Shown one piece after another: positions 7,728-34,140 of a stretch of 34,893 nt of DNA; within the stretch, counting starts at the first letter, position 1, and every line of letters starts with the position of its first letter. The DNA comes from Bacteroidota bacterium. GTDB taxonomy: Bacteria; Bacteroidota; Bacteroidia; Bacteroidales; Prolixibacteraceae. Made by a program: the position numbers and the translations under genes. The notes beneath the pieces are model-generated. The model was not told the DNA's origin. It worked only from the letters and a program-made list of their open reading frames with translations, and did not search any database. Where the stretch lies: the NCBI GenBank assembly GCA_029265715.1, contig JAJUGZ010000039.1, positions 1 through 34,893 of the forward strand, written 5' to 3'.

Positions 7728-9515
7728 ATGAAGAATATCCGGAATTTTTGTATCATCGCACACATCGATCATGGGAAGAGTACCCTGGCCGACCGTCTGT
7801 TGGAATATACCAAAACGATTGACCAGCGCGACATGCACGCGCAGGTGCTTGACAGTATGGACCTTGAGCAAGAACGAGGCATTACCATTAAAAGCCATGC
7901 AATTCAGATGGTATATAATTCAGGAGGGCAGGATTACACGCTAAACCTGATCGATACTCCCGGGCACGTCGACTTTTCATACGAAGTTTCCCGATCGATT
8001 GCCGCCTGCGAAGGCGCTTTGCTCATTATTGATGCAACCCAGGGAATTCAGGCACAAACCATCTCTAACCTTTATCTGGCACTTGAGCATGATCTGGAAA
8101 TTATTCCGGTACTCAATAAAATGGACCTCCCAAACGCGATGCCCGAAATCGTGGAAGATCAGATCATTGACCTGATTGGCTGCAAGCGGACTGACATTAT
8201 CCGCGCCAGTGGAAAAACCGGCGAAGGAGTTACCGAAATTCTCGAACGGATTATTCATGTTATCCCGCCTCCGGAAGGCGATCCGGAAGCGCCGCTGCAG
8301 GCTTTGATCTTCGACTCGGTTTTCAACTCGTTCCGTGGGGTTATTGCTTATTTTAAAGTGGTGAACGGCGAAATCCGCAAAGGCGACCGGGTAAAATTTG
8401 TAAACACCCGCAAAGAATATGTGGCCGACGAAGTAGGCGTTCTTAAGCTGAATATGATTGAGCGCGATGTGCTGAAAACCGGCGATGTAGGGTACATCAT
8501 CTCTGGGATCAAGACGGCCCGCGAAGTAAAAGTGGGCGATACCATTACCCATGTGGCGCGTCCGTGCGATAAAGCCATATCCGGATTTGAAGAGGTTAAG
8601 CCGATGGTGTTTGCCGGAGTTTATCCGATTGACTCGGAAGATTATGAAGAACTCCGCGCATCGATGGAAAAACTCCAGCTAAACGATGCGTCGCTGACTT
8701 ACGAGCCAGAATCGTCGGCAGCGCTGGGCTTTGGGTTCCGCTGCGGGTTCCTGGGACTGCTGCACATGGAGATTATACAGGAACGGTTGGACCGCGAATT
8801 CGACATGAACGTAATCACCACCGTGCCGAACGTTTCGTACAAGGTACACACCACCAAAGGCGAAACCATTGATGTTTACAATCCTTCCGGATTACCAGCC
8901 GCAACCCTGATCGATCAGATCGACGAACCTTATATCCGGGCAAACATTATTACCCAGAGCGATTATATCGGGGTAATCATGCGTCTTTGCTTAGATAAAC
9001 GCGGGATCCTGATTAAACAGGATTACCTGACTACCGACCGGGTGGAATTAGTTTTCGATATGCCACTGGGCGAAATTGTATTCGACTTTTACGACAAACT
9101 AAAGAGCATTTCGCGCGGATATGCCTCGTTCGACTATCATATCCTGGATTTCCGCCCGGCCAAATTGGTCCGTCTGGATATCCTCCTGAACGGTGAAATG
9201 GTAGACGCTCTTTCAACGCTGATTCATTTTGACAATGCCTACAATTTTGGCCGCCGCATGTGCGAAAAACTAAAAGAACTGATTCCGCGCCAGCAATTCG
9301 ACATAGCGATCCAAGCCGCTATCGGGGCCAAGATTATCGCCCGGGAAACAATCAAGGCCGTTCGAAAAGACGTAACGGCCAAATGTTACGGAGGCGATAT
9401 TACCCGAAAACGAAAATTGCTTGAGAAACAGAAAAAAGGTAAAAAGCGAATGAAACAGGTCGGCAACGTGGAAGTGCCTCAAAATGCGTTCCTGGCTGTT
9501 TTAAAGCTCGATTAA
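7728..9515 (+). CDS. lepA: Elongation factor 4 (LepA), back-translocating GTPase
   Basis: LepA/EF4 is a ribosome-associated translational GTPase related to EF-G and involved in ribosome assembly and translation under stress. The G1 motif AHIDHGKST is at residues 11-19, followed by RGITI (G2), DTPGH (G3) and NKMD (G4). The LepA-specific C-terminal domain is present, with the basic stretch [16 protein letters not shown] near the end. The 595-aa length is standard. It stands as a single gene with its own promoter element and a strong terminator shared with the convergent hydC gene. Confidence 0.98.
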
Positions 9516-9536
9516 CATCATCCCAAATAAAACGAT

Positions 9537-9580
9537 ATTGGCCCGATGGCTTCAGGTCATCGGGCCAATCAGTTATTTTT
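9537..9580. terminator. Bidirectional terminator between lepA and hydC
   Basis: A perfect 12-bp stem (9537-9548 with 9558-9569, 9-nt loop) has a T-rich tail on the + side (9573-9580) and a weaker T-rich tail in the minus direction. It ends the convergent lepA and hydrogenase transcripts. Confidence 0.88.
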
Positions 9581-9582
9581 CC

Positions 9583-10089
9583 TCAAGCCGTTTTAGCCTC
9601 GGCAGCACAGCCTTCCTTGTACTCGGCAATAATTTTATGTACCTGCTGCGGCGACACGCGGCCATACACTTTTTCGCCGACCATCACCACCGGGGCCAAA
9701 CCACAGGCGCCGACGCAACGCAGGCAACTCAGTGAAAAGCGGCCATCGGGCGTAGTCTCTCCCACCTCGATGCTCAGTTGTCGTTTGATTTCGCTTAAAA
9801 CCTGCTCAGCACCCCGAACATAACAGGCCGTCCCCATGCAAACCGAGATCGGGTGCTGTCCCTTGGGTAACATAGTAAAAAACGAATAGAACGTAACTAC
9901 GCCATACACTTTGGCCACCGAGATATTCAGTTCGCGGGCAATCACTTCCTGCACTTCGGCAGGCAGATAGCCCAGTTTGCTTTGTACCTGGTGAAGGACG
10001 TTGATCAGCTCGCCTTCGTCGTTATTGAATTTTGTGCAGATTTCCCTAATCAGGTCAACAGCTTTCTCTGCTAATTTTATTTTTGGCAT
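9583..10089 (-). CDS. hydC: [FeFe]-hydrogenase subunit HydC (NuoE-like [2Fe-2S] protein)
   Basis: This 168-aa protein is the NuoE/HoxE-like subunit of a multimeric NADH-linked [FeFe] hydrogenase. A helical N-terminal part (residues 1-75, GYLPAEVQ and VYGVVTFYSFF motifs) is followed by a thioredoxin-like [2Fe-2S] domain with ligands Cys84, Cys89, Cys125 and Cys129 (CMGTAC and CVGAC). It would pass electrons between HydB and HydA. It is the last gene of the locus, which is unusual, since hydC more often precedes hydB. It is separated from hydA by 129 nt with repeated CCACAGAG motifs. A general NuoE is the alternative name, but no other complex I genes are present. Confidence 0.92.
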   Translation of the reverse strand: MPKIKLAEKAVDLIREICTKFNNDEGELINVLHQVQSKLGYLPAEVQEVIARELNISVAKVYGVVTFYSFFTMLPKGQHPISVCMGTACYVRGAEQVLSEIKRQLSIEVGETTPDGRFSLSCLRCVGACGLAPVVMVGEKVYGRVSPQQVHKIIAEYKEGCAAEAKTA

Positions 10090-10154
10090 TTTCGAACGAT
10101 TTTCATTTTTAATACAGATTCAATTAATTTTCTGTGTGAAACTCGGCGAGAGAA

Positions 10155-10199
10155 CTCTGTGGTAAATAACCCACAGAGAACACGAAGTACCCACAGAGA
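10155..10199. repeat. CCACAGAG inverted and direct repeats between hydA and hydC
   Basis: CTCTGTGG at 10155-10162 pairs with CCACAGAG at 10171-10178 across an 8-nt loop, and an 11-nt direct repeat (ACCCACAGAGA) occurs at 10169-10179 and 10189-10199 with a 20-nt period. The element lies inside the hydA-hydC transcript. It may be a genome-wide repeat, a processing hairpin or neither. Confidence 0.6.
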
Positions 10200-10218
10200 T
10201 TTTCATGACGATCCATCG

Positions 10219-11970
10219 CTAGCTTCTGTCAAAATATTGAGTATGCAGCAGATGATGCGACTTTTCGCTCAACGGGGCACCCAGGAACTCTTCGTACAGT
10301 TTTTTTATGTACGGGTTTTCATGCGATTTCCGGAGTTTCTTGTTTTTATCTTCTGCATAAATAGCCTTCTGTCGTTTTTTCAGGATCTCTGCATTTCCGT
10401 GGTGATACGGCTGGCCTCCTCCCCCGATACAACCACCCGGGCACGACATAATTTCAATGGCATGGAACTCGCTGGTACCAGCCTGAATTTCTTCGAGCAA
10501 CTTGCGGGCATTCCCCAATCCGTGGGCAATACCAATATTGATCGGCGTTCCGTTGAAATCGATCGTTGCTTTACGCAAACCGTCCATCCCGCGCAGTTCT
10601 TCGAAATCGAGACGAGGCAACGATTTTCCGGTAAATACTTCGTAAGCCGTACGGACAGCCGCTTCAATTACGCCACCGGTTGTACCGAAAATAACCCCGG
10701 CTCCGGTCGATTCGCCCAATGGCTGGTCAAAATCTTCATCGGGCAGCGAACGGAAATCAAGATTGGCCAGCTTAATCAGCTGTGCCAGTTCGCGAGTAGT
10801 CAAAGCATAATCGACATCTGGATTCCCGTTCACAGCAAACTCTTCGCGACTGCTCTCGTATTTTTTTGCTACACACGGCATGATCGAAACCACTACCAGG
10901 TCTTCGCGTTTCACTCCCAGTTTCCCGGCAAAATACGTTTTGGCTATCGAGCCAAACATTTGCTGGGGCGAACGGGCTGTCGACGGAATATCTTTCAACT
11001 CCGGAAACTGGTGTTCGAAGAATTTCACCCAGGCCGGGCAACAACTGGTCAGGATTGGCAACTTGACATTCTTGTCGCCTTCCATGAAAGCCGATAAGCG
11101 GCCCAGCAACTCGGTCCCTTCTTCCATGATGGTCAGATCGGCAGCAAAATCGGTGTCGAACACATAATCGAACCCCAGACGGCGCAAAGCAGCGGCCATT
11201 TTGCCGGTCACCAGCGTACCGGCAGGCATGCCAAATTCTTCGCCCAACGCCGCACGCACAGCCGGAGCCGTTTGCACAATGACGGTTTTGGTCGGGTCAG
11301 ACAACGCGCGGATCACTGCGCCAGTTTCGTCCACTTCGGTCAAAGCGCCGGTAGGACAAACGGCCACACACTGCCCGCAATAGGTACATACCGAGTGGTC
11401 GAGGTTCATCTCGAAAGCCGGGGCCACCACCGCGTTAAAACCGCGATTTACAGCCGACAGTACACCAACGGTCTGCACTTCGTTGCACATGGTTTCGCAG
11501 CGACGGCACATAACACATTTGTTCACTTCGCGAATAATAGCCGGCGATGTGTCTTCGCGGTAGGTCGACTGCTCACCTTTGTAATGAATCTCCCGGATTC
11601 CGAGACGGGTTGCCAAATCCTGCAACTCGCAATTGCCCGATTTGGCGCAGATCAAACAATCGGCCGGGTGATCGGAAAGGATCAACTCAACCACTGTGCG
11701 GCGGGCATTTACCACGCGCATGGTGTGCGTGCTCACCTCCATGCCTTCGGTAGCTTCGGTGCAGCAGGCCGGGGCCAGGTTGCGGCGCCCTTTTACTTCA
11801 ACCACGCAAACACGGCACCCGCCCGGCTTATTTTCGATGTTCAGATCGTCCAACTTCATGTGGCACAACGTCGGGATATCGATGCCGATGCTTTCGGCAG
11901 CTTTCAGTACGGTAGTCCCTTTTTTTACAACTACCGGTTTATTGTCGATTTTTAAATTGATTATTTCCAT
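10219..11970 (-). CDS. hydA: [FeFe]-hydrogenase catalytic subunit HydA
   Basis: HydA carries the H-cluster that makes or splits H2, here as the catalytic subunit of a HydABC complex coupled to NADH and ferredoxin. Domains in order: [2Fe-2S] (Cys36, Cys52, Cys55, Cys69 or 70), His-ligated [4Fe-4S] (His101, Cys105, Cys108, Cys114), two [4Fe-4S] clusters (Cys152/155/158/162 and Cys195/198/201/205), then the H-domain. All three H-cluster signatures are intact: TSCCPAW at 308-314 (proton-shuttle Cys310, ligand Cys311), MPCVAKK at 364-370 (Cys366), and EIMSCPGGC at 506-514 (Cys510, Cys514). At 583 aa it lacks an extra C-terminal cluster domain known in longer HydA proteins. The start lies 3 nt after the hydB stop. 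Maturases HydE/F/G are not in this window. Confidence 0.97.
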   Translation of the reverse strand: MEIINLKIDNKPVVVKKGTTVLKAAESIGIDIPTLCHMKLDDLNIENKPGGCRVCVVEVKGRRNLAPACCTEATEGMEVSTHTMRVVNARRTVVELILSDHPADCLICAKSGNCELQDLATRLGIREIHYKGEQSTYREDTSPAIIREVNKCVMCRRCETMCNEVQTVGVLSAVNRGFNAVVAPAFEMNLDHSVCTYCGQCVAVCPTGALTEVDETGAVIRALSDPTKTVIVQTAPAVRAALGEEFGMPAGTLVTGKMAAALRRLGFDYVFDTDFAADLTIMEEGTELLGRLSAFMEGDKNVKLPILTSCCPAWVKFFEHQFPELKDIPSTARSPQQMFGSIAKTYFAGKLGVKREDLVVVSIMPCVAKKYESSREEFAVNGNPDVDYALTTRELAQLIKLANLDFRSLPDEDFDQPLGESTGAGVIFGTTGGVIEAAVRTAYEVFTGKSLPRLDFEELRGMDGLRKATIDFNGTPINIGIAHGLGNARKLLEEIQAGTSEFHAIEIMSCPGGCIGGGGQPYHHGNAEILKKRQKAIYAEDKNKKLRKSHENPYIKKLYEEFLGAPLSEKSHHLLHTQYFDRS

Positions 11971-11973
11971 GGC

Positions 11974-13767
11974 TTATCCGATAATTATGGCGTCAAACTT
12001 ACATTTCTCGTAGCAGACCCCGCATTTGATACACAGCGACTGGTCGATGTAGTGCGGGCTGCGCTTTTCTCCGGAAATTGCTCCGACCGGGCAATTACGG
12101 AAACAGAGCGTACAGCCGGTACACTTGTCTTCGAGAATAGTATATTTCAGCAGTGCTTTACATTGTCCTGACGGGCATGTTTTGGAATCGACATGCGCCA
12201 GGTATTCGTCATAAAAATGGTCAAGCGTAGAAAGGACCGGGTTGGGCGAAGTTTGTCCCAATCCGCACAGCGAGGCATCTTTGATCACGGTGCTCAACAT
12301 GCGCAGACGGTCGAGATCTTCCTTGGTCCCATTTCCTTCGGTAATGCGTTCCAGAATTTCGTGCAGGCGTTTGTTGCCAATGCGGCACGGCGCGCATTTT
12401 CCGCACGATTCGTCGAGGGTAAACTCCAGGTAGAACTTGGCAATCGAGACCATGCAGTCGGTTTCGTCCATCACGATCATCCCTCCGGAGCCCATCATCG
12501 AGCCGGCAGCCAGCAGGTTGTCGTAGTCGATCGGTGTATCCAGAAAATCTTTGGTCAAACAACCTCCGGAAGGACCCCCGGTTTGAACGGCCTTGAATTC
12601 TCTCCCGTCTTTGATGCCGCCGCCAATGTCGTAAATTACTTCGCGCAGGGTAGTTCCCATCGGAACTTCGATCAGCCCCACGTTGTTGATTTTCCCGGCG
12701 AGCGCAAACACTTTGGTCCCCTTCGATTTTTCAGTTCCGATTGCTGCAAACCATCCTGCCCCTTTGTTGATAATCGGCGGGATGTTGGCAAAAGTTTCCA
12801 CGTTGTTCACATTGGTGGGTTTACCTTTGTAGCCCGACTCGGCCGGGAACGGAGGTTTAACGGTAGGTTCGCCGCGCAAACCTTCCATCGAATGGATCAG
12901 CGCGGTTTCTTCGCCGCACACAAAAGCGCCGGCGCCGTAACGGATCTCGATATCGAAATTAAAGCCGCTGCCCATGATATCCTCGCCCAACAAACCATAC
13001 TCGCGGGCTTGTTTGATGGCAATCTTCAGTCGTTCTACGGCCAGCGGGTATTCGGCACGAATGTAAACCAAACCTTTGTCGGCACCAATGCAGTAGCCGC
13101 AAATAGCCATGGCTTCGATCACCGAATGCGGGTCGCCTTCCAAAATCGAGCGGTCCATGAAAGCGCCCGGGTCGCCTTCGTCAGCGTTGCAAACCACATA
13201 CTTCTGGTCGCTCACCGATTTACGGGTAATTTCCCATTTCAGCCCGGTCGGGAAGCCACCGCCTCCACGCCCGCGCAGACCCGAGTCTTTAATGATCCGG
13301 ATCGTTTCTTCCGGGGTTTTCTCCAGCAGGCACGACCCCAGGGCCGCATAACCATCACGGGCAATGTACTCATCGATGTTTTCAGGATTAATAAAACCGC
13401 AGTTGCGCAAGGCGATACGCACCTGTTTTTTGTAGAACTCCATACCTTTGGCATCGTGCACCGAAGCCTGGGTCTCCGGATCGACATAAAGCAAGCGCTC
13501 TACTTTGCGCCCCTTCACGATGTGCTCCTCGACCAGTTCGGTCACATCTTCCGGAGTAACATGCACATAGAACGTGTTGTCGGGAAGAATTTTAACGATT
13601 GGCCCTTTTTCGCAAAAACCGAAGCAACCGGTCATAACCACCTGGACTTCGTCGGAAAGCCCAAGTTCACTGAGCCGGTTCTGAAAATTCAGTTTGATTA
13701 ACTCACTCTGGGAGGCCTTGCATCCGGTCCCACCGCACACAAGGACATGCATTGTATAATCAGCCAT
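11974..13767 (-). CDS. hydB: [FeFe]-hydrogenase subunit HydB (NuoF-like NADH/FMN subunit)
   Basis: HydB is the flavin and NAD(H)-binding subunit of electron-bifurcating hydrogenases. The 597-aa protein has an N-terminal thioredoxin-like [2Fe-2S] domain (Cys11, Cys16, Cys48, Cys52), the NuoF core with the nucleotide motif GRGGGGFPTGLKW (166-178) and the FMN motif GAGAFVCGEETALI (278-291), a [4Fe-4S] site (Cys455, Cys458, Cys461, Cys501), and a C-terminal 2x[4Fe-4S] ferredoxin domain (Cys549/552/555/559 and Cys579/582/585/589). The ferredoxin-like tail distinguishes HydB from plain NuoF and supports the bifurcating type, in which NADH and reduced ferredoxin jointly drive H2 evolution. A further CPSGQC pair (Cys531, Cys536) may bind an added cluster or metal. 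Bifurcation itself is inferred from family knowledge. Confidence 0.96.
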   Translation of the reverse strand: MADYTMHVLVCGGTGCKASQSELIKLNFQNRLSELGLSDEVQVVMTGCFGFCEKGPIVKILPDNTFYVHVTPEDVTELVEEHIVKGRKVERLLYVDPETQASVHDAKGMEFYKKQVRIALRNCGFINPENIDEYIARDGYAALGSCLLEKTPEETIRIIKDSGLRGRGGGGFPTGLKWEITRKSVSDQKYVVCNADEGDPGAFMDRSILEGDPHSVIEAMAICGYCIGADKGLVYIRAEYPLAVERLKIAIKQAREYGLLGEDIMGSGFNFDIEIRYGAGAFVCGEETALIHSMEGLRGEPTVKPPFPAESGYKGKPTNVNNVETFANIPPIINKGAGWFAAIGTEKSKGTKVFALAGKINNVGLIEVPMGTTLREVIYDIGGGIKDGREFKAVQTGGPSGGCLTKDFLDTPIDYDNLLAAGSMMGSGGMIVMDETDCMVSIAKFYLEFTLDESCGKCAPCRIGNKRLHEILERITEGNGTKEDLDRLRMLSTVIKDASLCGLGQTSPNPVLSTLDHFYDEYLAHVDSKTCPSGQCKALLKYTILEDKCTGCTLCFRNCPVGAISGEKRSPHYIDQSLCIKCGVCYEKCKFDAIIIG

Positions 13768-13780
13768 CTGCTCCGTCGGT

Positions 13781-14179
13781 TTATGGGTTATCGATCTGTT
13801 TATAATTCACCGGAATAATTCCGTCAACCAATTGATTGAGCTTGATGTGTTTCTCGATGATTTCCTGGGCCTTGGCACGATTGACATAACCATAAACCAC
13901 CGGTTCGCTGCCCGGCATGGTCAGCTCGATGGTTGGTTCGGCATAGCAATAGCCCATGCAGCCAGTTTGGGTCACCACGGCATCGATCCCCTGATGTTCG
14001 AGTTCTTCAATCAGGTAAGTCATCGTTTCCTTTGCTCCGGAAGCGATACCGCAAGTGGCCATCGAAACCCTGATCTGGATCAGATTTTCGGGATGGTCGC
14101 CCTTTTCCCTCAGTTTAATTTTCGACTGAACTTCTGCCTTTAATTGCTTCAGGTCAGCCAATGATTTAATTTTTGTCAT
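13781..14179 (-). CDS. Thioredoxin-like [2Fe-2S] ferredoxin domain protein of the hydrogenase operon
   Basis: A 132-aa protein with a basic, helical N-terminus and a thioredoxin-like ferredoxin domain (about residues 34-112). Visible cysteines are Cys43 (ATCGIASGA) and Cys74 and Cys78 (TGCMGYC). The fourth ligand of the usual C-x4-C...C-x3-C pattern is missing: position 48 is Gly, and Ser47 is next to it. I believe the TCGIASGA form is normal for this hydrogenase-associated subfamily, so an incomplete or differently ligated cluster is likely. The gene precedes hydB by 13 nt and follows a 192-nt gap, so it is probably the first gene of the catalytic transcript. It may be an electron-transfer or regulatory accessory of HydABC. 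Confidence 0.85.
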   Translation of the reverse strand: MTKIKSLADLKQLKAEVQSKIKLREKGDHPENLIQIRVSMATCGIASGAKETMTYLIEELEHQGIDAVVTQTGCMGYCYAEPTIELTMPGSEPVVYGYVNRAKAQEIIEKHIKLNQLVDGIIPVNYKQIDNP

Positions 14180-14267
14180 ACGAATTAAGGTTGCTTAATA
14201 ACAGGTTGTTTATCTATAATAAGTGTTTGTCATTTCTCATTTTTACCACAGGGGCCACTGGGTTATA

Positions 14268-14330
14268 TACAGTGTTTAAGCTACGGCCTAATGCCTATGT
14301 GTACTCTATCTATCAAGGCCTTACACTGTA
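14268..14330. promoter_or_regulatory. Dyad in the leader of the ferredoxin-hydBAC genes
   Basis: TACAGTGT at 14268-14275 is perfectly complementary to ACACTGTA at 14323-14330. Between them lie smaller inverted pieces (GGCCT and AGGCC). The dyad lies in the only large gap of the regulatory-catalytic series, about 90 nt before the start at 14179. It could be a regulator site or a leader RNA structure. No TAnnTTTG element is evident on the minus strand here. Confidence 0.4.
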
Positions 14331-14371
14331 AATTTCCGGAGTTTCACATTGAAAACCGCTAATATTTGTCA

Positions 14372-14920
14372 TTATCTGCTAATTTGTATCTGTTCCAAAT
14401 TCTCTTGAATCAATTCTTTAAGAAATTTTCGGATATCCGGATGATTGATTGGCACCTCGTCCAAGTTTTGCTTCACTTCGCGGGTATCAATCTGGTAATG
14501 CCCGCTGGGAGTGTGATGAGAATAAACAAAGTCGATACCGGGATATGAGCTAAAAAGCAAAACCAATGTTTCGGCGATATTGCCCAAAACAGGGCGGTCG
14601 AGGTGGCTTAAGCCAAAGTCGGCTGTGACCTGCGTTCCTTCGCCGGGTTTTGATTGTATGGAAAACCGGCCTCCGGTACTTTCTGCATTTTGTTTAAACA
14701 GGGGAATTCCCAACCCCACTTTTCTTGTTGTTCGTGATGTATAAAACGGACTAACGACCTTTTCGAGTGTTTCATTGTCCATTCCGGAACCATTGTCAGT
14801 AATGCAAATTCGGTAAATATCTTTTCCGGGGTCTTCGATAATTTCAATGTTTATCAGCCCGGCGCTGGCGCGAACAGAGTTCTGGACAATGTCGAGAATA
14901 TGCATCGAAAGATCTTTCAT
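14372..14920 (-). CDS. Histidine-kinase-type ATP-binding (HATPase_c) protein of the hydrogenase operon
   Basis: This 182-aa protein is a stand-alone GHKL ATPase domain. The N-box is ILDIVQNSVRASA (residues 8-20), the G1 box DNGSGMD (about 42-48), and the G2 region is RKVGLGIPLFKQNAESTGG (about 66-84). There is no dimerisation/phospho-acceptor helix, no sensor and no membrane segment, so it is not a classical two-component kinase. Its C-terminal 70 residues have no recognised motif. Proteins of this type recur beside HydS-like hydrogenases. It probably acts as a protein kinase or ATP-dependent regulatory partner. It is the last gene of the regulatory block, 62 nt after the PHP gene. Confidence 0.85.
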   Translation of the reverse strand: MKDLSMHILDIVQNSVRASAGLINIEIIEDPGKDIYRICITDNGSGMDNETLEKVVSPFYTSRTTRKVGLGIPLFKQNAESTGGRFSIQSKPGEGTQVTADFGLSHLDRPVLGNIAETLVLLFSSYPGIDFVYSHHTPSGHYQIDTREVKQNLDEVPINHPDIRKFLKELIQENLEQIQISR

Positions 14921-14982
14921 TTGGGTGTTGTGTTGTTCGTTCGTTGTGTATTTGTGTATTGAGTGTGTCCTTGTAGCGATGT

Positions 14983-15732
14983 CTATAAACTATCCAAGCG
15001 AGTCAATCGCCCATCCTGACGGGTCAGGGCTTTTTTTATTTCAGAAAACGAAGGTTTGTCCATTTCAAACCAAGTATAGGTTGAACCCAGGTCATCGGGG
15101 TAATGCGCATCAGAAAAGCGGACCAGCGTGATTTCTCCGGGGACAAAAAACTGTTCCCGAACGGCTTGTTCATCAGCATACTTCGAGATTTGAAGGGCAT
15201 CAATCGTCAACCCATTCGGTAAAAAGCCTAATTGGCTAAACAAGCTGTTCCGTGGGCGATCGACATGAGCCGGAATAAACAACCCGCCCAGCTCGTGTAC
15301 TTTTTGTTCCAGTTCATCGATGCTGACATCGAGCGCCACGCCCAGGTAACGTTCTTCGGTTTCCGAGATCAGGTCGTTCTCGTCGACCAGGACCTGGTAC
15401 CCAAACAGATCGTCCCGGTTGGGAATTACCGGGAGATGCCGGTCAAGAAAAGTCTGAAAACTATCCAGTATTTCCAAATCAGGGAAAATACACAGACAAT
15501 GAACCTCTTCGGACGAGCAGGCTTCGGCGCCTGGCAAAACCAACAGGCCACCCTGCTTTTCAGCAATCTCGATAACCTTAGCACATTGCCGCGTTGTATT
15601 GTGATCGGTTACAGCAATCACATCCAGTCCATTTTGCCGGGCCAGCTTTACAATATTCGAAGGGCTCATTTCAAGGTCGCCACACGGCGAAAAGACCGAA
15701 TGAATATGCAGATCGACCTTGAATTGATGCAT
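14983..15732 (-). CDS. PHP-domain phosphoesterase of the hydrogenase operon
   Basis: The 249-aa protein has the metal-binding motifs of the PHP superfamily: DLHIHS (Asp7, His9, His11), TDHNT (Asp43, His44), a GAEACSSEEVH segment (Glu70, His78), PAHVDRP (His156) and FSDAHYPDDLG (Asp208, His210). This is the arrangement of histidinol-phosphatase-type and nucleotide/phosphoprotein phosphoesterases with a trinuclear metal centre. The gene starts immediately beside the end of DRTGG copy 2 (2 nt apart). Given its ATPase neighbours it may remove a phosphate placed by them, or hydrolyse a small signal molecule. The substrate is unknown. Confidence 0.88.
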   Translation of the reverse strand: MHQFKVDLHIHSVFSPCGDLEMSPSNIVKLARQNGLDVIAVTDHNTTRQCAKVIEIAEKQGGLLVLPGAEACSSEEVHCLCIFPDLEILDSFQTFLDRHLPVIPNRDDLFGYQVLVDENDLISETEERYLGVALDVSIDELEQKVHELGGLFIPAHVDRPRNSLFSQLGFLPNGLTIDALQISKYADEQAVREQFFVPGEITLVRFSDAHYPDDLGSTYTWFEMDKPSFSEIKKALTRQDGRLTRLDSL

Positions 15733-15734
15733 CG

Positions 15735-16073
15735 TTACTGCTGCTTAAGAAGTTGATATAACTTACCTGAAATCTCGAATGTCGACAGATCGGTCCCCAA
15801 GATCGGGATGTTTTCGTCGTTACTGTGCTGCACCGTACTTTCGTGTGGCTGAAACCCTTTCACCAGGATAACGGCAGCCAGTTCTTTCAATGAAGCAATA
15901 GCCATTACATTCTGGTGTACCTGAAGGGTCACCCAAACCTGGCCTTCCTGCGAAAAGCCCATCACATCGCTCAACAGGTCGGAAACATATCCGCCCGAAA
16001 CTTCGCGGTCGAGCCCGCTATGTCCTGAAAATACTTTCAGTCCTAATTTTTCTACAATTTCAGAAACCTTCAT
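15735..16073 (-). CDS. DRTGG-like domain protein, copy 2
   Basis: This 112-aa protein resembles the DRTGG domain, first seen at the N-terminus of HPr kinase and in phosphotransacetylase-linked and CBS-linked regulators. The family core is visible: GLDREVSGGYVSDLLSDVM at about residues 19-37, an NVMAIASLKELAAVIL helix-strand, and IPILGTDLSTFEISGKL near the end. The alpha/beta pattern suggests a small-ligand or protein-binding module with no obvious catalytic residues. It is clearly paralogous to copy 1 (17852-18196). Its first 14 nt overlap the end of the HydS-type gene, so the two are translationally coupled. Confidence 0.8.
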   Translation of the reverse strand: MKVSEIVEKLGLKVFSGHSGLDREVSGGYVSDLLSDVMGFSQEGQVWVTLQVHQNVMAIASLKELAAVILVKGFQPHESTVQHSNDENIPILGTDLSTFEISGKLYQLLKQQ

Positions 16074-17439
16074 TTCGTCGTCCTCTTTTATTACAATCAG
16101 CTTTAAACCGGTCGATCCCCCACTTTTTCTCTAAGTTCCGGTAAGCTTTTCCGGTTTGTATTTTTCCTTCGTCTTCCCACATTTGTTGCAGAAAAACGCA
16201 ATCAGACATTTTCGCCTTTCCATTTACCATGTCTTCGGCCAAAGCATGACAATTGGGGGCACCACAGGCCCCACAATCGATACCAGGCAAAAAACAAATA
16301 ATCCGCTGGACCTTGTTCATCTTGTCCATGGCTCTTGTACGGTCGCTCCCAAAAATATAGACTGGCTTGGGATTGATACGTTCGATGATTAATTTCTTCT
16401 GAAGGACAGCCGTATCGACCCGGATCTGGTTTTTGTTGATCGACTGGGCTGCCGGATAGCGCTTAGCCCGGCGTTCGAGCCGTTCGACGGTCATAAAGCG
16501 GTTACCGGTCAGCAGGATACCTCCGGCGCAACTCTGATCGCAGGCCCGCATTTCCAAAAAATCGATGCCATGCACCTGATCGTCTTCCAACCGTTCCAAG
16601 AACCGGATTACATTGTGCATCCCATCAACCGCCATACTGCGGGAACCAAAATGACATGCTTCGCCACGGGTCAGGCTCCATAAAACCCCATCGCGTGTCA
16701 GATTTTCGCGTTGACTACTGGTATCTTCTTCCGGCCCTCCTTCTTCAATGATTTTCATCACCCGGTTATACAGCTCATTCATGTTGATTACCCCGTCAAC
16801 AATCGATTCTTTCTCTCCCACCGGACTTTTCACCGAGGCAATCTTTGCACTGCAGGGGGTTACATAAAACAACCCGATTTCATCCTCACCAGCCCCTTCT
16901 TTCTTCAAGCGCTCAATCGCGTAGTGGGCAGCCAGATCGTGTGGTGCTTTCCGGAGCAACAAATTCTCGGTCAGCGCCGGATAACGGTTTTGGATCAAGC
17001 GCACCACCGATGGGCAAAAAGTCGATATAACCGGTTTGGGGGTATCTTGCGCTGCCAGATATTCTTTGATCGAATTAATCAGAAGCTTAATTGGCTGTTC
17101 AATCTCAAAAACATGGGTAAATCCAATTTTAAGCAGGCTGCTGTATATCTGGTTTTCAGAGATCTTTTCGGGAAACTGCCCGATCATGACTGACGGGAAC
17201 AAAACCACCCGATATTTAAAATTCCGTATTTTTTGAATGTCGTCCTGCTCGATATAAAAAGCATTGGTCGGGCAGCTGCGATGGCAATATCCGCAATCGA
17301 CACAGCGTTCGTGATCGATTACAGCTTTACCGTTTATCACGCGGATAGCCTCGGTTGGACACGATTTCATGCAATGTGTACACCCGATGCATTTGGCTTC
17401 ATCAATTTTCAGTGCGTGATATTTGGGTAATCCACTCAT
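16060..17439 (-). CDS. HydS-type (putative sensory) divergent [FeFe] hydrogenase
   Basis: A 459-aa iron-sulfur protein with two N-terminal [4Fe-4S] clusters (Cys17/20/23/27 and Cys46/49/52/56), an [FeFe]-hydrogenase H-domain (about 75-330) and a C-terminal [4Fe-4S] domain (Cys389, Cys392, Cys397, Cys414). The four H-cluster ligands are kept: Cys142 (TFCP), Cys196 (TPCSAK), Cys300 and Cys304 (ACDQSC). The surroundings are altered: the proton-shuttle Cys of TSCCP is Phe141, Met of MPC is Thr194, Met of ExMAC is Arg298, and the PGG of L3 is DQS. Lys199, which helps hold the diiron site, remains. No PAS domain follows. This fits the 'group D' putative sensory hydrogenases found next to HydABC. 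Fast H2 turnover is unlikely; sensing of H2 or redox state is the inference. It overlaps the RsbW-like gene by 4 nt. Confidence 0.9.
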   Translation of the reverse strand: MSGLPKYHALKIDEAKCIGCTHCMKSCPTEAIRVINGKAVIDHERCVDCGYCHRSCPTNAFYIEQDDIQKIRNFKYRVVLFPSVMIGQFPEKISENQIYSSLLKIGFTHVFEIEQPIKLLINSIKEYLAAQDTPKPVISTFCPSVVRLIQNRYPALTENLLLRKAPHDLAAHYAIERLKKEGAGEDEIGLFYVTPCSAKIASVKSPVGEKESIVDGVINMNELYNRVMKIIEEGGPEEDTSSQRENLTRDGVLWSLTRGEACHFGSRSMAVDGMHNVIRFLERLEDDQVHGIDFLEMRACDQSCAGGILLTGNRFMTVERLERRAKRYPAAQSINKNQIRVDTAVLQKKLIIERINPKPVYIFGSDRTRAMDKMNKVQRIICFLPGIDCGACGAPNCHALAEDMVNGKAKMSDCVFLQQMWEDEGKIQTGKAYRNLEKKWGIDRFKADCNKRGRRNEGF

Positions 17440-17849
17440 TTGAAAAAATTGACCATTTTTACAGTTGTTCCTTTCCCCACTTCACTTTCAATCAACAGCT
17501 CGTCGGTATTTTTCTTGATATTGGGCAGCCCCATTCCGGCGCCAAACCCCATATCGCGTACCTCCTTGCTGGCCGTTGAGTATCCTTCCTGCATGGCCAG
17601 GTTGATGTCCGGGATACCAGGGCCCTCGTCTTCCAGCAGCATGGTAATTTTGGTATCATCGATCATGATGGTAGCTTTGCCCCGGTAGGCATGCGCTACC
17701 ACATTGACTTCGGCTTCGTACAAAGCGATCACGATACTTTTAATAGTGCGGGCGTCGATACCTAATTGTTTCAAGACCTTTTTCACCTCGCTGGATGGAT
17801 GTCCGGCCCGGGTAAAATCGCCTCCGACGATATCATACGTTAGGGTCAT
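17436..17849 (-). CDS. RsbW-like anti-sigma-factor/serine kinase-type ATPase
   Basis: This 137-aa GHKL ATPase is of the RsbW/SpoIIAB kind. The N-box is EAEVNVVAHAY, the G1 box DEGPGIPD, and the G2 box DMGFGAGMGL. Such proteins phosphorylate a partner on Ser/Thr or sequester a sigma factor. The frame is open to 17930, but that extension lies inside the upstream gene; the ATG at 17849 is 2 nt after the preceding stop and gives a normal RsbW-like beginning. The 3' end overlaps the HydS-type gene by 4 nt (ATGA). No anti-anti-sigma (STAS) protein is present, so one of the DRTGG proteins or HydS itself may be the partner. Confidence 0.88.
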   Translation of the reverse strand: MTLTYDIVGGDFTRAGHPSSEVKKVLKQLGIDARTIKSIVIALYEAEVNVVAHAYRGKATIMIDDTKITMLLEDEGPGIPDINLAMQEGYSTASKEVRDMGFGAGMGLPNIKKNTDELLIESEVGKGTTVKMVNFFK

Positions 17850-17851
17850 AT

Positions 17852-18196
17852 TTAATAAACAGGTTTTAATCCGGCCTGAAACAACAACCCACTCGACCGG
17901 AACATCGACAGAGGCGACTCTAAAATGCACATCCCGTTCTCACAGGCCAATTTAACCATTTCAGGAGTTGCACGTTTGTTGCGCACAAAAACAATGCACT
18001 GAACATCGGCCATCTCGGCGGTACGAATGGTTTGCAGGTTCGACAGGCCTGTCAGCAAAACCATGTTCTCGGTATCTAAGGTCAATACGTCGCTCATCAG
18101 GTCGGAGCTATAACCTTTATCGATTTCCCGTTCGAGCCCATCGGCCCCACACACAACGTCAGCATTCAGCAAAGCAGCAATTTCTTTAATCTTCAT
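17852..18196 (-). CDS. DRTGG-like domain protein, copy 1
   Basis: A 114-aa paralogue of the protein at 15735-16073. Shared positions run through the whole chain: MK-EI at the start, GLERE/GLDRE, GYSSDLMSDV/GYVSDLLSDV, a central Val-Leu-Leu-Thr/Val-Trp-Val-Thr strand, and ILESPLSMFRSSG/ILGTDLSTFEISG at the end. No catalytic motif is seen. It is the first gene of the regulatory block of the hydrogenase locus, and its leader contains a long hairpin (18237-18271). The family role (ligand or protein binding linked to phosphate metabolism) is not established. Confidence 0.78.
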   Translation of the reverse strand: MKIKEIAALLNADVVCGADGLEREIDKGYSSDLMSDVLTLDTENMVLLTGLSNLQTIRTAEMADVQCIVFVRNKRATPEMVKLACENGMCILESPLSMFRSSGLLFQAGLKPVY

Positions 18197-18236
18197 CCGG
18201 TTAATTGGTCATTGGGGGATTTACAAATAACCATAC

Positions 18237-18271
18237 TGTTGACGGGCCAACCCTTCTGGTCCGTCGCAACA
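18237..18271. promoter_or_regulatory. Hairpin or operator in the leader of the hydrogenase regulatory block
   Basis: GACGGGCC (18241-18248) pairs with GGTCCGTC (18258-18265) with one G-U or mismatch position, and flanking TGTT/AACA add four pairs after a 2-nt bulge. It lies about 45 nt before the DRTGG copy 1 start. It could be an attenuator-like RNA stem or a protein-binding dyad. Confidence 0.4.
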
Positions 18272-18390
18272 ACAGCACGTGCTTTGCAAATTTCATAAAA
18301 ATTTTGGTTGTCAAAACGGGAGTACCCTGTTTTTGCGCTATTTAAAATGGTTATACGAAACAGCACACGAATCCTCTATCACGGAGAAAT

Positions 18391-18420
18391 AAAAAAGCCA
18401 TCAGGGAACTCCCGATGGCC
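18391..18420 (-). terminator. Rho-independent terminator of the 221-aa membrane protein gene
   Basis: On the minus strand the stem GCCATCGGG/CCCTGATGGC (18397-18406 with 18411-18419, one bulged base) is followed by a T-run (complement of A at 18391-18396). It lies 28 nt after the stop codon. Confidence 0.85.
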
Positions 18421-18447
18421 ATATCGTATTGAGCTTATAAACAAGAC

Positions 18448-19113
18448 CTACTCTTTGTCGATCACGGCCGGATGCAAAAAGATCAGAAAGAAAATAAACG
18501 CGAATGAAAGCTCGTGCAGCTCACTTTCTTTGACGCGGTGAATAGAAACAATCATCAGGGTAACGATGAGCATAACCACAATATGTTGGACGCGTGGCAG
18601 TGGAACCCGGAACATGTTGACCAGGTTGCGGAACCATTTTACTTTCCAGGCCAGCAAGCGGGCAAAAACTAAATAAAAAATCAAAACCACAAACATAAGC
18701 CGGGAGAAAATCAGGATATTCAAATCTTCTCCGTCAACAACCAGGTTGTGCAGGTTGGTTTCGCCCTGTTTGTTGTGTTCGAGGAAGTACTCTCCGCTCT
18801 GAATATTGAAAATCCGCTGCCCCCAGCTAATTTCCTCTCCTGCGGCAAAAAAGAACAAAATGCCAAGCATAACGGCTGTAAAAATCCAGAGCTTCTTCTT
18901 ACTGTTGCGATATTCGTAAACACGGTAGAAACTTACCACACTGGCAGCCAACAGCGACAAAGCGGTCAGATTCTCAACCAGTCCGTCTTCCTGAACAAAG
19001 GGATAAAAAACTTCCTGTCCCTGACTTCCGAGGTACATGCCATATCCGGTGAAAATAAACAGCGCTGCGAACAAGATCCATTCAAGGCCTTTAAATAATT
19101 TTTCCTTTTCCAT
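18448..19113 (-). CDS. Integral membrane protein of unknown function
   Basis: I do not recognise a named family. The 221-aa protein has about six hydrophobic segments (roughly residues 12-27, 49-64, 75-91, 132-152, 177-191, 198-216). The most distinctive part is the polar loop after the third segment, with the motif GEEISWGQRIFNI and then EHNKQGETNLHN, whose Glu, Trp, Gln, Asn and His residues look conserved and could bind a substrate or metal. Similar membrane proteins with GEEISWGQR...NLHN are, as far as I recall, widespread and uncharacterised. It is a single-gene unit with its own terminator, divergent from the PMT-like glycosyltransferase. Confidence 0.75.
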   Translation of the reverse strand: MEKEKLFKGLEWILFAALFIFTGYGMYLGSQGQEVFYPFVQEDGLVENLTALSLLAASVVSFYRVYEYRNSKKKLWIFTAVMLGILFFFAAGEEISWGQRIFNIQSGEYFLEHNKQGETNLHNLVVDGEDLNILIFSRLMFVVLIFYLVFARLLAWKVKWFRNLVNMFRVPLPRVQHIVVMLIVTLMIVSIHRVKESELHELSFAFIFFLIFLHPAVIDKE

Positions 19114-32336: not shown

Positions 32337-32807
32337 TTATGCGTCATCTTTTTGTAAATAACTGGTTATCTTATTCAGGCACCGGTCGAAGTCTTTTTTT
32401 AATTCAGTTTCCCAAAAACGGATTACATGCCAGCCAGAATCTCTCAAAAGTTGGTTATTCTGTCTATCCCTTTGAATATTCCGTTCGATTTTAGGGATCC
32501 AAAACTCCCGGTTTGTTTTAATCTTTGACCTTTTTTCAGCCCAATTATAACCATGCCAAAATTCGCCATCAACAAATATTGCCAACTTGTGCTTAGGATA
32601 AACAATGTCTGGACAACCAGGTAATTTCTTATAATTCTTCCTGTATCGATACCCAAGGTTCCATAGTGCCTTTCTTAGCTTAAGCTCTGGCGTTGTATTT
32701 TGGGATTTGATTTTCCCCATCAATTCAGATCTTTGCTTGGTTGTATAAAAACCATTTGTTTCATTAAACCTTGGCACAACAATGTGGTTTTCAATATACT
32801 TCTTCAA
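32337..32807 (-). CDS. vsr: Very short patch repair endonuclease (Vsr)
   Basis: Vsr nicks DNA 5' of T in T:G mismatches that arise when 5-methylcytosine deaminates, and so protects sites of a C5-cytosine methyltransferase. The 156-aa protein has the family pattern TTKQRSELMGKIKSQNTTPE (residues 22-41), the catalytic-region PDIVYPK with Asp67, FVDGEFWHGYNW with His85, and the WxVIRFWETEL motif near the end. The start is a TTG at 32807, which gives MKKYIENHIVVPRFNE, a natural Vsr beginning; the frame is open to an ATG at 32879, but that extension is hydrophobic, unlike the family, and would cross the promoter region of the divergent methyltransferase. DNA is visibly AT-rich relative to the flank. 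Confidence 0.92.
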   Translation of the reverse strand: MKKYIENHIVVPRFNETNGFYTTKQRSELMGKIKSQNTTPELKLRKALWNLGYRYRKNYKKLPGCPDIVYPKHKLAIFVDGEFWHGYNWAEKRSKIKTNREFWIPKIERNIQRDRQNNQLLRDSGWHVIRFWETELKKDFDRCLNKITSYLQKDDA

Positions 32808-32864
32808 CTTTAAGATTGTTAATAAATATCTACAAATTAAAGTATAATAGACTAAAAATAAAAC

Positions 32865-32872
32865 TATATTTG
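32865..32872 (+). promoter_or_regulatory. -7 promoter element of the methyltransferase gene
   Basis: TATATTTG is a full TAnnTTTG match, 35 nt before the start at 32908. The expected transcription start near 32879 leaves no room for the in-frame ATG at 32878, which supports the later start. The -33 region is not a good TTTG. Confidence 0.6.
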
Positions 32873-32906
32873 TAACCATGTGTAATGTTGCACAATATGG
32901 TTATAA
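32870..32906 (+). promoter_or_regulatory. 37-nt dyad between promoter and methyltransferase start (candidate operator)
   Basis: TTGTAACCAT at 32870-32879 is inverted at 32897-32906 (ATGGTTATAA), with nine of ten positions matching and a 17-nt centre. The dyad begins inside the -7 element, covers the expected transcription start and ends one base before the ATG at 32908. It is the natural place for repression by the HTH domain of the methyltransferase; that link is inference. Confidence 0.55.
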
Positions 32907-32907
32907 A

Positions 32908-34140
32908 ATGAAAAAATATTACTCAATCGCTGAAGTCGCAGATTTACTTTCGGTTAGTAAAGAAACCTTACGTCGTTGGGATAGAAGTGGAAAGCTTACT
33001 GCAGTCCGAGAACCAATGAGTAATTACAGGGTTTATCATAAAGACCAACTAAAAATATTTGAAAGTTTGGATTTTTTATTTACCCCAACAGAAAGCGAAA
33101 ATGCTATCAAACCAAACCGGGATTTTAATTCAATTGAGCTTTTTGCTGGAGCAGGTGGCTTGGCCATAGGGTTAGAAGAAGCAGGAATAAAATGTTTGGC
33201 ACTCAACGAATTTGACCATTGGGCCTGCGAAACTTTGAAAAAGAACCGTCCTGATTGGAATGTTATTGAAGATGATGTCAAAAATGTCTCTTTTTCTAAT
33301 TTTAGAGGAATCGTAGATATTGTAACCGGAGGGTTTCCATGTCAGGCTTTTAGTTATGCCGGGAAAAAACTTGGGCTCCAGGATGCGAGAGGCACATTGT
33401 TTTACGAATTTGCAAGAGTTGTACAAGAAACAATGCCTGCAATTTGTGTCGGAGAGAATGTGAGGGGGTTATTGACACATGAAAATGGGAAAACAATTGA
33501 AGGTATGATTTCTATCCTCGATGAAATTGGATATAACGTAATTACGCCAAGAATTTTTAAAACCATTTTTTATAAAGTACCCCAAAAAAGAGAACGCGTA
33601 TTAATTGTTGGCATTAGAAAAGATTTGAACCATCACTTATATGAATTCCCAAAACCATTTAAAAAAGTTTATACCCTCCGGGATGCATTAAAAAAAGGGG
33701 AACTATATAATTGTGATGTGCCTGAATCTATCGGGTCTAAATACCCTAAAAGTAAAAAAGAAGTATTAGAGTTGGTTCCGGAAGGTGGCTACTGGAGAGA
33801 TTTGCCAATAGACATACAAAAGAAATATATGGGAGGTAGTTATTATTTAGGCGGAGGAAAAACAGGAATGGCAAGACGTATGAGTTGGTCAGAACCTTGC
33901 CTAACTTTAACTTGCAGCCCGGCACAAAAACAAACAGAACGTTGTCACCCCGAAGAAACAAGACCTTTTACAGTCAAAGAATATGCCCGAATCCAAACAT
34001 TCCCTGATGATTGGGAATTTGCTGGATCAGTCTCCCAGCAATACAAACAAATAGGCAATGCAGTCCCTGTAAATTTTGCGAAAGAAGTAGGCTATTCAAT
34101 CATACGGTTTCTAAATAAGGTTTATCCAAATCAAGAATGA
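32908..34140 (+). CDS. DNA (cytosine-5)-methyltransferase with N-terminal MerR/excisionase-like HTH
   Basis: A 410-aa modification enzyme that transfers a methyl group from AdoMet to C5 of cytosine. Residues 1-55 form a helix-turn-helix of the MerR/excisionase type (YYSIAEVADLLSVSKETLRRWDRSGKL, quoted as IAEVADLLSVSKETLRRWD). The catalytic part follows: motif I ELFAGAGGLAIGLE (77-90), motif IV GGFPCQAFS with the nucleophile Cys145, motif VI GENVRGLL (182-189), motif VIII QKRERVLIVG (226-235), a target-recognition region of about 245-365, and motif X QIGNAVPVNFA (381-391). All key residues are present. The start at 32908 follows the HTH and the promoter position. It lies between vsr (divergent) and an Eco47II-type endonuclease gene (56 nt downstream), so the methylated site is probably GGWCC or GGNCC (inference). 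Confidence 0.95.
   Translation: MKKYYSIAEVADLLSVSKETLRRWDRSGKLTAVREPMSNYRVYHKDQLKIFESLDFLFTPTESENAIKPNRDFNSIELFAGAGGLAIGLEEAGIKCLALNEFDHWACETLKKNRPDWNVIEDDVKNVSFSNFRGIVDIVTGGFPCQAFSYAGKKLGLQDARGTLFYEFARVVQETMPAICVGENVRGLLTHENGKTIEGMISILDEIGYNVITPRIFKTIFYKVPQKRERVLIVGIRKDLNHHLYEFPKPFKKVYTLRDALKKGELYNCDVPESIGSKYPKSKKEVLELVPEGGYWRDLPIDIQKKYMGGSYYLGGGKTGMARRMSWSEPCLTLTCSPAQKQTERCHPEETRPFTVKEYARIQTFPDDWEFAGSVSQQYKQIGNAVPVNFAKEVGYSIIRFLNKVYPNQE

Follow-up and report, generated by a model that had tools for sequence, protein, structure and literature searches.

The window analysed here comprises 34,893 nucleotides of contig JAJUGZ010000039.1 from a Bacteroidota bacterium of the family Prolixibacteraceae, and the stretch under study is its minus strand from position 18196 down to position 9583. 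This run encodes ten genes in the order DRT1-GHK1-HydS-DRT2-PHP-GHK2-Fdx-HydB-HydA-HydC. The first six, which combine two DRTGG proteins, two GHKL ATPases, a PHP phosphoesterase and a homologue of sensory [FeFe] hydrogenases, precede a bifurcating-type hydrogenase, and we propose that they work together as a signalling module:

17852 to 18196, minus strand: DRT1, 114-residue protein with a modelled DRTGG fold, first gene of the operon
17436 to 17849, minus strand: GHK1, SpoIIAB/RsbW-like GHKL ATPase, candidate kinase or partner of DRT1
16060 to 17439, minus strand: HydS, 459 residues, putative group-D-like sensory [FeFe] hydrogenase homologue
15735 to 16073, minus strand: DRT2, second DRTGG protein, a line separate from DRT1 in alignments
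14983 to 15732, minus strand: PHP, PHP-family metallophosphoesterase with complete metal-site motifs
14372 to 14920, minus strand: GHK2, second GHKL ATPase, with a C-terminal domain of about 75 residues
13781 to 14179, minus strand: Fdx, 132-residue thioredoxin-like [2Fe-2S] protein
11974 to 13767, minus strand: HydB, NuoF-like flavin subunit (Complex1_51K, 156.6 bits)
10219 to 11970, minus strand: HydA, predicted NADH-dependent [FeFe] hydrogenase of group A6
9583 to 10089, minus strand: HydC, NuoE-like [2Fe-2S] subunit (2Fe-2S_thioredx, 177.2 bits)

The initial annotation of this DNA had placed these genes on one strand with ends at 18196 and 9583, which we confirm; its list is right for nine genes and leaves out Fdx (14179-13781), between GHK2 and HydB. 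Its description of neighbours as overlapping or 2 nucleotides apart holds for the first four junctions (DRT1-GHK1, gap of 2 nucleotides; GHK1-HydS, overlap of 4; HydS-DRT2, overlap of 14; DRT2-PHP, gap of 2) and fails for PHP-GHK2 (62 nucleotides) and those that follow (GHK2-Fdx, 192; Fdx-HydB, 13; HydB-HydA, 3; HydA-HydC, 129).

The ten-gene arrangement recurs beyond chance. We fetched 80 loci, all from Bacteroidota, through a HydS alignment that kept 80 of 575 relatives, and annotated them with profiles of the ten families. The full order is intact in 56 of the 80 loci and consistent up to the contig end in 17 more, among them L098, in which HydA scores low. Seven loci differ: L107, L111, L114, L116 and L121 hold the six genes in order with no hydABC directly behind, L117 holds five module genes and L113 three, and all seven genomes carry additional [FeFe] hydrogenase genes elsewhere. 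In Parabacteroides the six genes stand as a run of their own in L107 and L111, two of the three loci fetched, and also in a record from P. distasonis (L126). The evidence from Clostridia consists of one plasmid-collection record (L125) together with printed reports; in this Subdoligranulum variabile record, DRT1-GHK1-HydS-DRT2-PHP is divergent from HydC-GHK2-Fdx-HydB-HydA. Strong HydS matches (>300 bits) occur in only 3 of 296 genomes of the wider phylum, and a search of viral contigs returned no HydS relative.

Since the 80 loci were picked by HydS, they provide no test of whether the families are independent. Co-inheritance was instead counted in 198 genomes from 147 genera, drawn evenly from the same order, with E-value cuts of 1e-40 for HydS, 1e-5 for DRT, 1e-20 for GHK1 and GHK2, 1e-30 for PHP and 1e-150 for group A6 HydA (HydA6). 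Additional matches were excluded for HydS in G041 (a fragment) and in G484, and for DRT1 in G483 (likewise a fragment), and the sole DRT match of G412 was counted as DRT2; DRT2 may be missed in places because it was scored only via the weaker hits of the DRT1 profile (the DRT2 of G525 was seen only later). We found DRT1 in 67 genomes, GHK1 in 67, HydS in 63, DRT2 in 67, PHP in 65, GHK2 in 68 and HydA6 in 129, and 60 of the 71 genomes having any of the six families have all of them. DRT1 and GHK1 occupy exactly the same 67 genomes (phi coefficient 1.00). The initial annotation had held that independent occurrence of the families in most genomes would speak against its proposal; across these 198 related genomes the pairwise phi values are 0.88-1.00, the lowest being that of HydS with GHK2, so that the proposal was not refuted by this check. 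PHP and GHK2 are lacking in G403 and G470, and the fragmented G495, in which HydS is also cut, gave no DRT2, PHP or GHK2 hits. HydA6 is present in 61 of 63 genomes with HydS and in 68 of 135 without it, so that the module is nearly always accompanied by HydA6, and HydA6 often occurs without the module.

Within the block, the genes form two triplets, {DRT1, GHK1, HydS} and {DRT2, PHP, GHK2}. Taking as adjacent any same-strand genes separated by -150 to 450 nucleotides, we found DRT1 beside GHK1 in 66 of 67 cases, GHK1 beside HydS in 62 of 63, DRT2 beside PHP in 61 of 64, PHP beside GHK2 in 58 of 65 and HydS beside DRT2 in 50 of 62. The triplets are truly separated in G037 (L132/L146), G499 (L133/L134), G459 (L135/L136), G530 (L137/L138; its PHP sits on a third contig) and G473 (L144), and their order is reversed in G431 and G514 (L141 and L142). 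Smaller rearrangements place DRT2 upstream of DRT1 (G403, G470) or PHP before DRT2 (G037, G449), and DRT2-GHK2 is found without PHP in G412 (L131) and in G525 (L148), in the latter directly before Fdx-HydB-HydA-HydC. From the adjacency counts and these separated or reordered loci, DRT1-GHK1 and, less strictly, DRT2-GHK2 emerge as the tightest units. A distance-correlation (mirror-tree) test over 56 loci ranks the split into these triplets first of ten, a weak result that carries no significance test. Gene fusions join the same neighbours: DRT1 and GHK1 form a single frame of 278 and 272 residues in G403 and G470, respectively, with both domains found by Pfam, and PHP and GHK2 form a single frame of 433 residues in G529, all read as they stand, with no repair or read-through. 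Two DRTGG-GHKL triplets fit the block better than the earlier grouping into a sensor, two kinases and two targets.

The DRTGG assignment is direct for DRT2, which scores 27.1 bits against the Pfam DRTGG cut-off of 25.2. DRT1 scores 20.8 bits, below that cut-off; judged by its AlphaFold2 model (predicted local distance difference test, pLDDT, 97.0), it nevertheless belongs to the DRTGG fold, with a template-modelling (TM) score of 0.85 (E 4.2e-7) to the DRTGG structure 2ioj and of 0.67 to HPr kinase 1ko7. Among the DRTGG folds closest to it are HPr kinase and the regulatory part of a CBS pyrophosphatase. Ser35 and Thr49 do not vary across a 16-sequence alignment covering both DRTGG lines, which makes them candidate phosphosites. 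GHK1 exceeds the cut-off of Pfam HATPase_c_2 (46.7 bits) and falls below those of the anti-sigma families TIGR01925 (anti-sigma F; 63.4 vs 135 bits) and NF003144 (RsbW; 34.6 vs 145 bits). Its stretches invariant in 20 sequences, E45xxxN49, D74-G78 and G101-L108, correspond to retained N, G1 and G2 boxes, and its best matches in the PDB are anti-sigma F and RsbW structures (1til, 1l0o, 6m36).

PHP exceeds the cut-offs of both Pfam PHP (32.2 bits) and PHP_C (24.0 bits), resembles phosphoesterases and nucleases, and keeps the complete metal site (HxH, DH, E, H, DxH; residues H9, H11, D43, H44, E70, H156, D208 and H210) invariant in 20 sequences. A Bacteroidota PHP protein, Php1, is described as having tyrosine-phosphatase activity (PMC6759763). 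GHK2 matches Pfam HATPase_c at 59.7 bits, with invariant residues D10, N14, D42, G44, G46, G69 and G71. Its model (pLDDT 92.2) retrieves histidine kinases and MutL-type proteins in Foldseek, and its C-terminal domain has no clear structural relative among the 50 Foldseek matches listed. Separately, a lone GHK2-like gene in genome G488 (L149:7037-8107) adjoins a gene for a SiaC-family regulatory phosphoprotein, another partner-switch component.

HydS matches Pfam Fe_hyd_lg_C (87.9 bits) and FeS (50.9 bits), with no PAS match in Pfam up to E 0.1. The eight N-terminal cysteines of two [4Fe-4S] motifs and the H-cluster cysteines C142, C196, C300 and C304 are kept in 81 of 81 sequences (the window and the 80 loci), and the C-terminal Cx2Cx4Cx16C motif (C389, C392, C397, C414) in 80, the remaining sequence being cut by a frame break. 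The distant HydS proteins of L139, L140, L159 and L160 have lost the cysteine at position 20 and retain the four H-cluster cysteines. Three active-site positions, assigned by distance to the cluster cysteines with reference to the CpI motifs, are replaced throughout the 81: the site of the proton-relay cysteine C299 (CpI numbering) is F in 72 and Y in 9, that of M353 is T in 72, S in 7 and A in 2, and that of M497 (residue 298, two before the third H-cluster cysteine) is R in 74 and K in 7. The Fe-S motifs, the H-cluster cysteines and the absence of PAS fit a group-D-like (M2e) protein, for which H2 activation is a prediction. In a side observation, the HydS of L040 (genome G033) is only 26% identical and keeps the four H-cluster cysteines while losing the surrounding FCP and TPC..K motifs; the ten-gene order of its locus is intact.

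The downstream enzyme has the features of group A6 of the bifurcating type: HydA scores 910.2 bits against NF040763 (cut-off 765), HydB is NuoF-like and HydC NuoE-like, and bifurcation is predicted on that basis. Family scores are weak for Fdx (fdxn_Clost, 29.2 bits, cut-off 150; 2Fe-2S_thioredx, 17.5 bits, cut-off 24.8).

Variant loci reveal which parts of this arrangement are separable. HydS is lacking, and the other five genes kept as DRT1-GHK1-DRT2-PHP-GHK2, in 4 of the 67 DRT1 genomes (G370, G421, G471 and G474), with no HydS-like gene elsewhere in them at E 1e-40. All four have a group-C-like HydS, which scores 534-686 bits against the L079 protein that bears PAS, together with a PP2C phosphatase gene; in the one such HydS that was scanned (L155), Pfam finds the H-domain and no PAS at E 1e-4. 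An [FeFe] HydABC follows the HydS-less module in G471 and G474, the contig of G370 ends at that point, and in G421 (L128:13261-15957) the module is followed by Fdx, HydB, an 899-residue molybdopterin oxidoreductase in the place of HydA, and HydC. In G403 and G470 (L139 and L140), DRT2, the DRT1-GHK1 fusion and HydS lie beside NuoE/NuoF-like and molybdopterin-oxidoreductase genes, with NfnAB-like genes after that set in L140. Reduced module sets thus precede molybdopterin formate-dehydrogenase-like complexes in three genomes (L139, L140, L128). Outside the class, G239 and G247 (L159 and L160) carry all six genes; behind them come HydC, Fdx, HydB, a HydA-like protein in which no H-domain was matched, FlpD and the small and large subunits of a [NiFe] hydrogenase. 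HydB/HydC-like subunits are common to all three types of module-associated enzyme, [FeFe], [NiFe] and formate-dehydrogenase-like.

The maturase HydF exceeds its cut-off in 10 of 13 genomes tested in a search that covered HydF alone, and is not detected in G239, G247 and G387 (L152), where HydS nevertheless keeps its four H-cluster cysteines. G239 and G247 are rated 99% complete. G387 is missing HydA from inside the operon, and its lack of HydA6 and HydF may stem partly from an incomplete assembly (95% complete). In genomes without HydF, HydS would be either matured by other than the known route or an Fe-S protein without [2Fe].

Genes flanking the block add context. A SpoIIE-type PP2C lies near it in 35 of the 80 loci; 14 aligned members share invariant Asp residues, which we take to be the SpoIIE-type motif, and in all 35 loci a same-strand PAS-like protein adjoins the PP2C. 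In the loci read out, this partner is, for L052 and L055, a PAS protein of about 310 residues that is divergent from the block and, for L079 and L102, a group-C HydS. In the source genome a PAS-like gene and a PP2C gene are paired on a different contig (C104); the window operon has neither. PP2C is present in 53 of 67 DRT1 genomes, and 72 of 74 PP2C genomes have HydA6; it tracks HydA6 more closely than it tracks the module, which disfavours it as the missing phosphatase of the module. PP2C is perhaps a shared, hydrogenase-linked phosphatase, as opposed to an obligate member.

Immediately before the group-D block, loci L079 and L102, as read out, carry another hydC-hydB-hydA set, whose HydB is shorter, and after it genes for a small 2Fe-2S protein, a PAS-type HydS and the PP2C; the rows of L075, L080, L082, L083, L091, L093 and L095 resemble this double set. 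A Rex-type gene (Put_DNA-bind_N and CoA_binding) precedes DRT1 in L127, with a look-alike cluster in 4 of 80 loci. Rex was rejected as a regulator, the Rex-box-like sites in the window not exceeding chance (16 vs 19.8 expected). A query seeded with the STAS gene of L114, a weak single-sequence search, found no further STAS gene in the 80 loci, and the 22 commonest flanking clusters, inspected by eye, included none resembling a sigma factor or STAS protein and no recognised messenger synthase.

At the borders of the operon, two pattern matches stand out:

18396 to 18420, minus strand: terminator-like hairpin, a 10-pair stem followed by a T run, upstream of the operon, which would end the preceding gene
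9537 to 9569, strand not assigned: 15-pair hairpin between the convergent ends of hydC and a neighbour judged by eye to be lepA, a candidate operon end

Terminator-like hairpins number 18 in positions 9400-18700, against 12.6 (standard deviation 3.7) in shuffled sequence; with the count so near the shuffle level, the two flanking hairpins are weak evidence for borders. The window shows no excess of promoter-like sites over chance (9 vs 9.9 expected), and an Rfam scan of it returned no match. Elsewhere in the window (32337-34140), a Vsr mismatch endonuclease gene lies head to head with a C5-cytosine methyltransferase gene whose product has an N-terminal MerR-type helix-turn-helix; their listed start regions overlap by 2 nucleotides.

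We interpret the six genes as one signalling module of two cognate DRTGG-GHKL pairs, each equipped with an enzyme, acting on the adjoining bifurcating-type NADH/ferredoxin enzyme, and give this interpretation roughly an even chance (about 0.5). SpoIIAB/SpoIIAA and RsbW/RsbV are partner-switching pairs in which the ATPase acts with a STAS protein. The analysis establishes that the genes are present, ordered and co-inherited, that they fall into two triplets and are naturally fused in some genomes, that catalytic motifs and H-cluster cysteines are kept, and that the module accompanies [FeFe], [NiFe] and formate-dehydrogenase-like complexes. What we infer concerns phosphorylation, the direction of the signal, the substrate of PHP, GHK2 as output and H2, as opposed to general redox state, as input. 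In such a scheme {DRT1, GHK1, HydS} would sense and {DRT2, PHP, GHK2} would transmit. The conformation of HydS would shift with H2 or with its Fe-S redox state and thereby set the activity of GHK1, which would bind and probably phosphorylate its DRTGG partner, as SpoIIAB and RsbW do with theirs. PHP may undo the modification or remove a phosphorylated ligand, and DRT2 with GHK2 would carry the signal to the neighbouring enzyme, HydABC in the window, most likely by acting on or assembling its HydB/HydC core; a direct output is favoured because the module has no DNA-binding gene. A DRTGG protein in the STAS role would explain the obligate pair, its fusion, the existence of a second pair and the phosphatase-like PHP. 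Output from GHK2 onto the HydB/HydC core would explain why GHK2 lies nearest the enzyme, why DRT2-GHK2 alone precedes HydABC in G525 and why GHK2 lies inside the Clostridium-type enzyme operon.

Several observations weigh against this interpretation. The 198 genomes are related, so that p-values for co-inheritance overstate independence. Among the 12 cases in which HydS and DRT2 are not adjacent, contig breaks account for some, certainly G041 (inside HydS) and possibly G449 and G426; the two DRT1-GHK1 fusions may represent one event, and the PHP-GHK2 fusion comes from a single genome. GHK1 does not qualify as an anti-sigma F equivalog under TIGR01925, and the N-box of GHK2 carries Asp and not the usual Glu, so that GHK2 may be an ATPase or a non-enzyme. 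The true phosphatase could be the SpoIIE-type PP2C. The loss of HydS is not simply a consequence of hydrogenase loss, since two of the four HydS-less genomes keep an ordinary [FeFe] HydA behind the module, and sensing of H2 is disfavoured in the two [NiFe] genomes, where HydS is present and HydF was not detected.

These points reshape the earlier proposal of a control circuit for H2 metabolism. A dedicated circuit is still the best reading; the tie to [FeFe] HydABC is not upheld, as the module stands alone in Parabacteroides and elsewhere precedes [NiFe] or formate-dehydrogenase-like complexes. HydS likewise belongs to the module as suggested, and its role as the sensor is qualified by the four genomes that keep the other five genes without it and by the two [NiFe] genomes with no HydF detected. 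A broader proposal, which we advance tentatively and consider possible, is that the module represents a new type of partner switch, with DRTGG replacing STAS as the obligate partner of a GHKL protein in two mirrored triplets. HydS would then be basically an Fe-S redox sensor, and the switch would govern flavin-based, bifurcating-type NADH/ferredoxin enzymes that share a HydB/HydC core, irrespective of whether the catalytic part is [FeFe], [NiFe] or formate dehydrogenase. Where HydF is lacking, HydS keeps its H-cluster pocket, which would receive no [2Fe] by the known route.

Other explanations account for parts of the evidence. The module could serve assembly or repair, with the GHKL and DRTGG proteins acting like chaperones in building a many-cluster enzyme and HydS as scaffold; GHK2 is indeed the module gene closest to those of the enzyme, both in the window and in most loci, and the GHKL-like HydE of Acetobacterium woodii, encoded in the hyd operon and absent from the active enzyme, has been suggested for assembly or signalling (PMC3315566). 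We regard this role as unlikely, if with some real chance of being right, given that half of the HydS-negative genomes retain HydA6 without the module and that in Parabacteroides hydABC is not next to the six genes. Partner switching of the classical kind, acting on transcription with GHK1 as an anti-sigma factor released through a phosphatase and a sigma factor coded elsewhere, would agree with the nearest solved structures of GHK1 and with the PP2C genes near the block and, beside a PAS protein, on another contig of the source genome. The obligate partner of GHK1 is however DRT1 and not a STAS protein; the weak single-sequence query leaves one STAS gene in 80 loci, and visual inspection of the 22 commonest flanking clusters revealed no sigma-like or STAS-like one, which renders this explanation improbable.

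A nucleotide-signal module, in which DRTGG binds an adenine nucleotide or similar ligand, PHP hydrolyses it and the GHKL proteins read the ligand state, draws on the likeness of DRT1 to the CBS pyrophosphatase regulatory region and HPr kinase and on the complete metal site of a phosphoesterase- and nuclease-like PHP. Yet DRT1 tracks GHK1 exactly and PHP less closely, with no PHP hit in G403, G470 and the fragmented G495, and the inspection by eye of the 22 flanking clusters revealed no messenger synthase; we consider such a module quite improbable. Lastly, HydS might be an ordinary extra hydrogenase with passenger neighbours: all its H-cluster cysteines are kept, and slow turnover of H2 is described for its relative from Thermoanaerobacter (PMC8163306). 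Near-perfect co-inheritance in a fixed order, the replacement of the proton-relay Cys and both active-site Met in all 81 HydS sequences, and the retention of the remaining five genes by four genomes that lack HydS make this a very improbable account.

For the putative sensory [FeFe] hydrogenases, whose signalling route is at issue, candidate partners can now be named, GHK1 first and then DRT1; a 2026 study of the HydS of Thermoanaerobacter mathranii (TamHydS) calls the identification of interaction partners critical (PMC13104023). Two cognate pairs are predicted, the natural fusions offer targets for structure determination or modelling, and the genomes lacking HydS or retaining only DRT2-GHK2 are natural knock-outs for comparison. 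Should [NiFe] and formate-linked enzymes be controlled by the module as well, it would form a general layer of control on anaerobic redox metabolism and be relevant to H2 turnover in the gut and to H2-producing or acetogenic cell factories.

Parts of this arrangement have been published before: the position of HydS upstream of HydABC, and the ten genes as a plain list. In Thermoanaerobacter strains, genes for a histidine kinase and for a group D-like hydrogenase are described upstream of the bifurcating hydrogenase (PMC3608648), and the printed list for Halanaerobium hydrogeniformans Halsa_1862-1871 fits the ten genes by number and order, a match made by annotation and order only (PMC4237134). 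In the portion of that list available, HydC stands before the histidine kinase, Halsa_1868 and 1869 are 'iron-sulfur' proteins, Halsa_1871 is an unidentified open reading frame, none is called DRTGG and no functional interpretation is given. The DRTGG-GHKL pairing, the co-inheritance and the fusions were not found in the literature searched, a body of work mostly outside the subscription journals.

The closest relative in print is TamHydS (group D/M2e), which, as far as the available sections of its reports describe it, shares with the window HydS the two N-terminal [4Fe-4S] motifs, the H-domain, the C-terminal Cx2Cx4Cx16C motif and the absence of PAS, and has a gene that likewise lies upstream of those for a bifurcating hydrogenase, next to one for a histidine-kinase-like ATPase (PMC8163306, PMC13104023). 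The same sections name an AraC regulator in its flank and mention no DRTGG or PHP gene, both of which are present here. TamHydS has Ser at M353, Leu at M497 and no Cys at C299 (PMC8163306), and TmHydS has Ser at the M497 site, whereas HydS here has Arg or Lys at M497. The group C systems, TmHydS and the hfs operon (PMC10055695, PMC11837493), also set a sensory hydrogenase and a phosphorylation-type partner beside a catalytic hydrogenase. They differ in their PAS domain and, in hfs, a serine phosphatase, with no DRTGG-GHKL pairs mentioned in the accessible text; the window operon has neither a PAS-bearing HydS nor PP2C, although a group-C-like HydS and PP2C stand directly beside the group-D block in L079 and L102.

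By position only, GHK2 resembles A. woodii HydE and HisK/HydD/HydP of the NiFe-HydABCSL of Acetomicrobium mobile (PMC3315566, PMC8880783, PMC9304861), where a GHKL-type gene lies in a bifurcating operon and its product outside the pure enzyme; Fdx resembles A. woodii HydD through gene position. The accessible text on those systems mentions no sensory HydS, DRTGG or PHP, and the name 'HydS' in HydABCSL denotes the small subunit of the [NiFe] enzyme. The HydABC-like 'Bfu' family of enzymes with many catalytic ends (PMC9304861) fits the variety of enzymes behind the module, for which bifurcation is predicted.

Across these comparisons, the logic of the SpoIIAB/RsbW systems comes nearest to what we propose for GHK1, which shares their ATPase domain and motifs and has an obligate small partner encoded next door. 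No sigma factor belongs to the present set, and the partner that is a STAS protein in those systems is here a protein with a modelled DRTGG fold.

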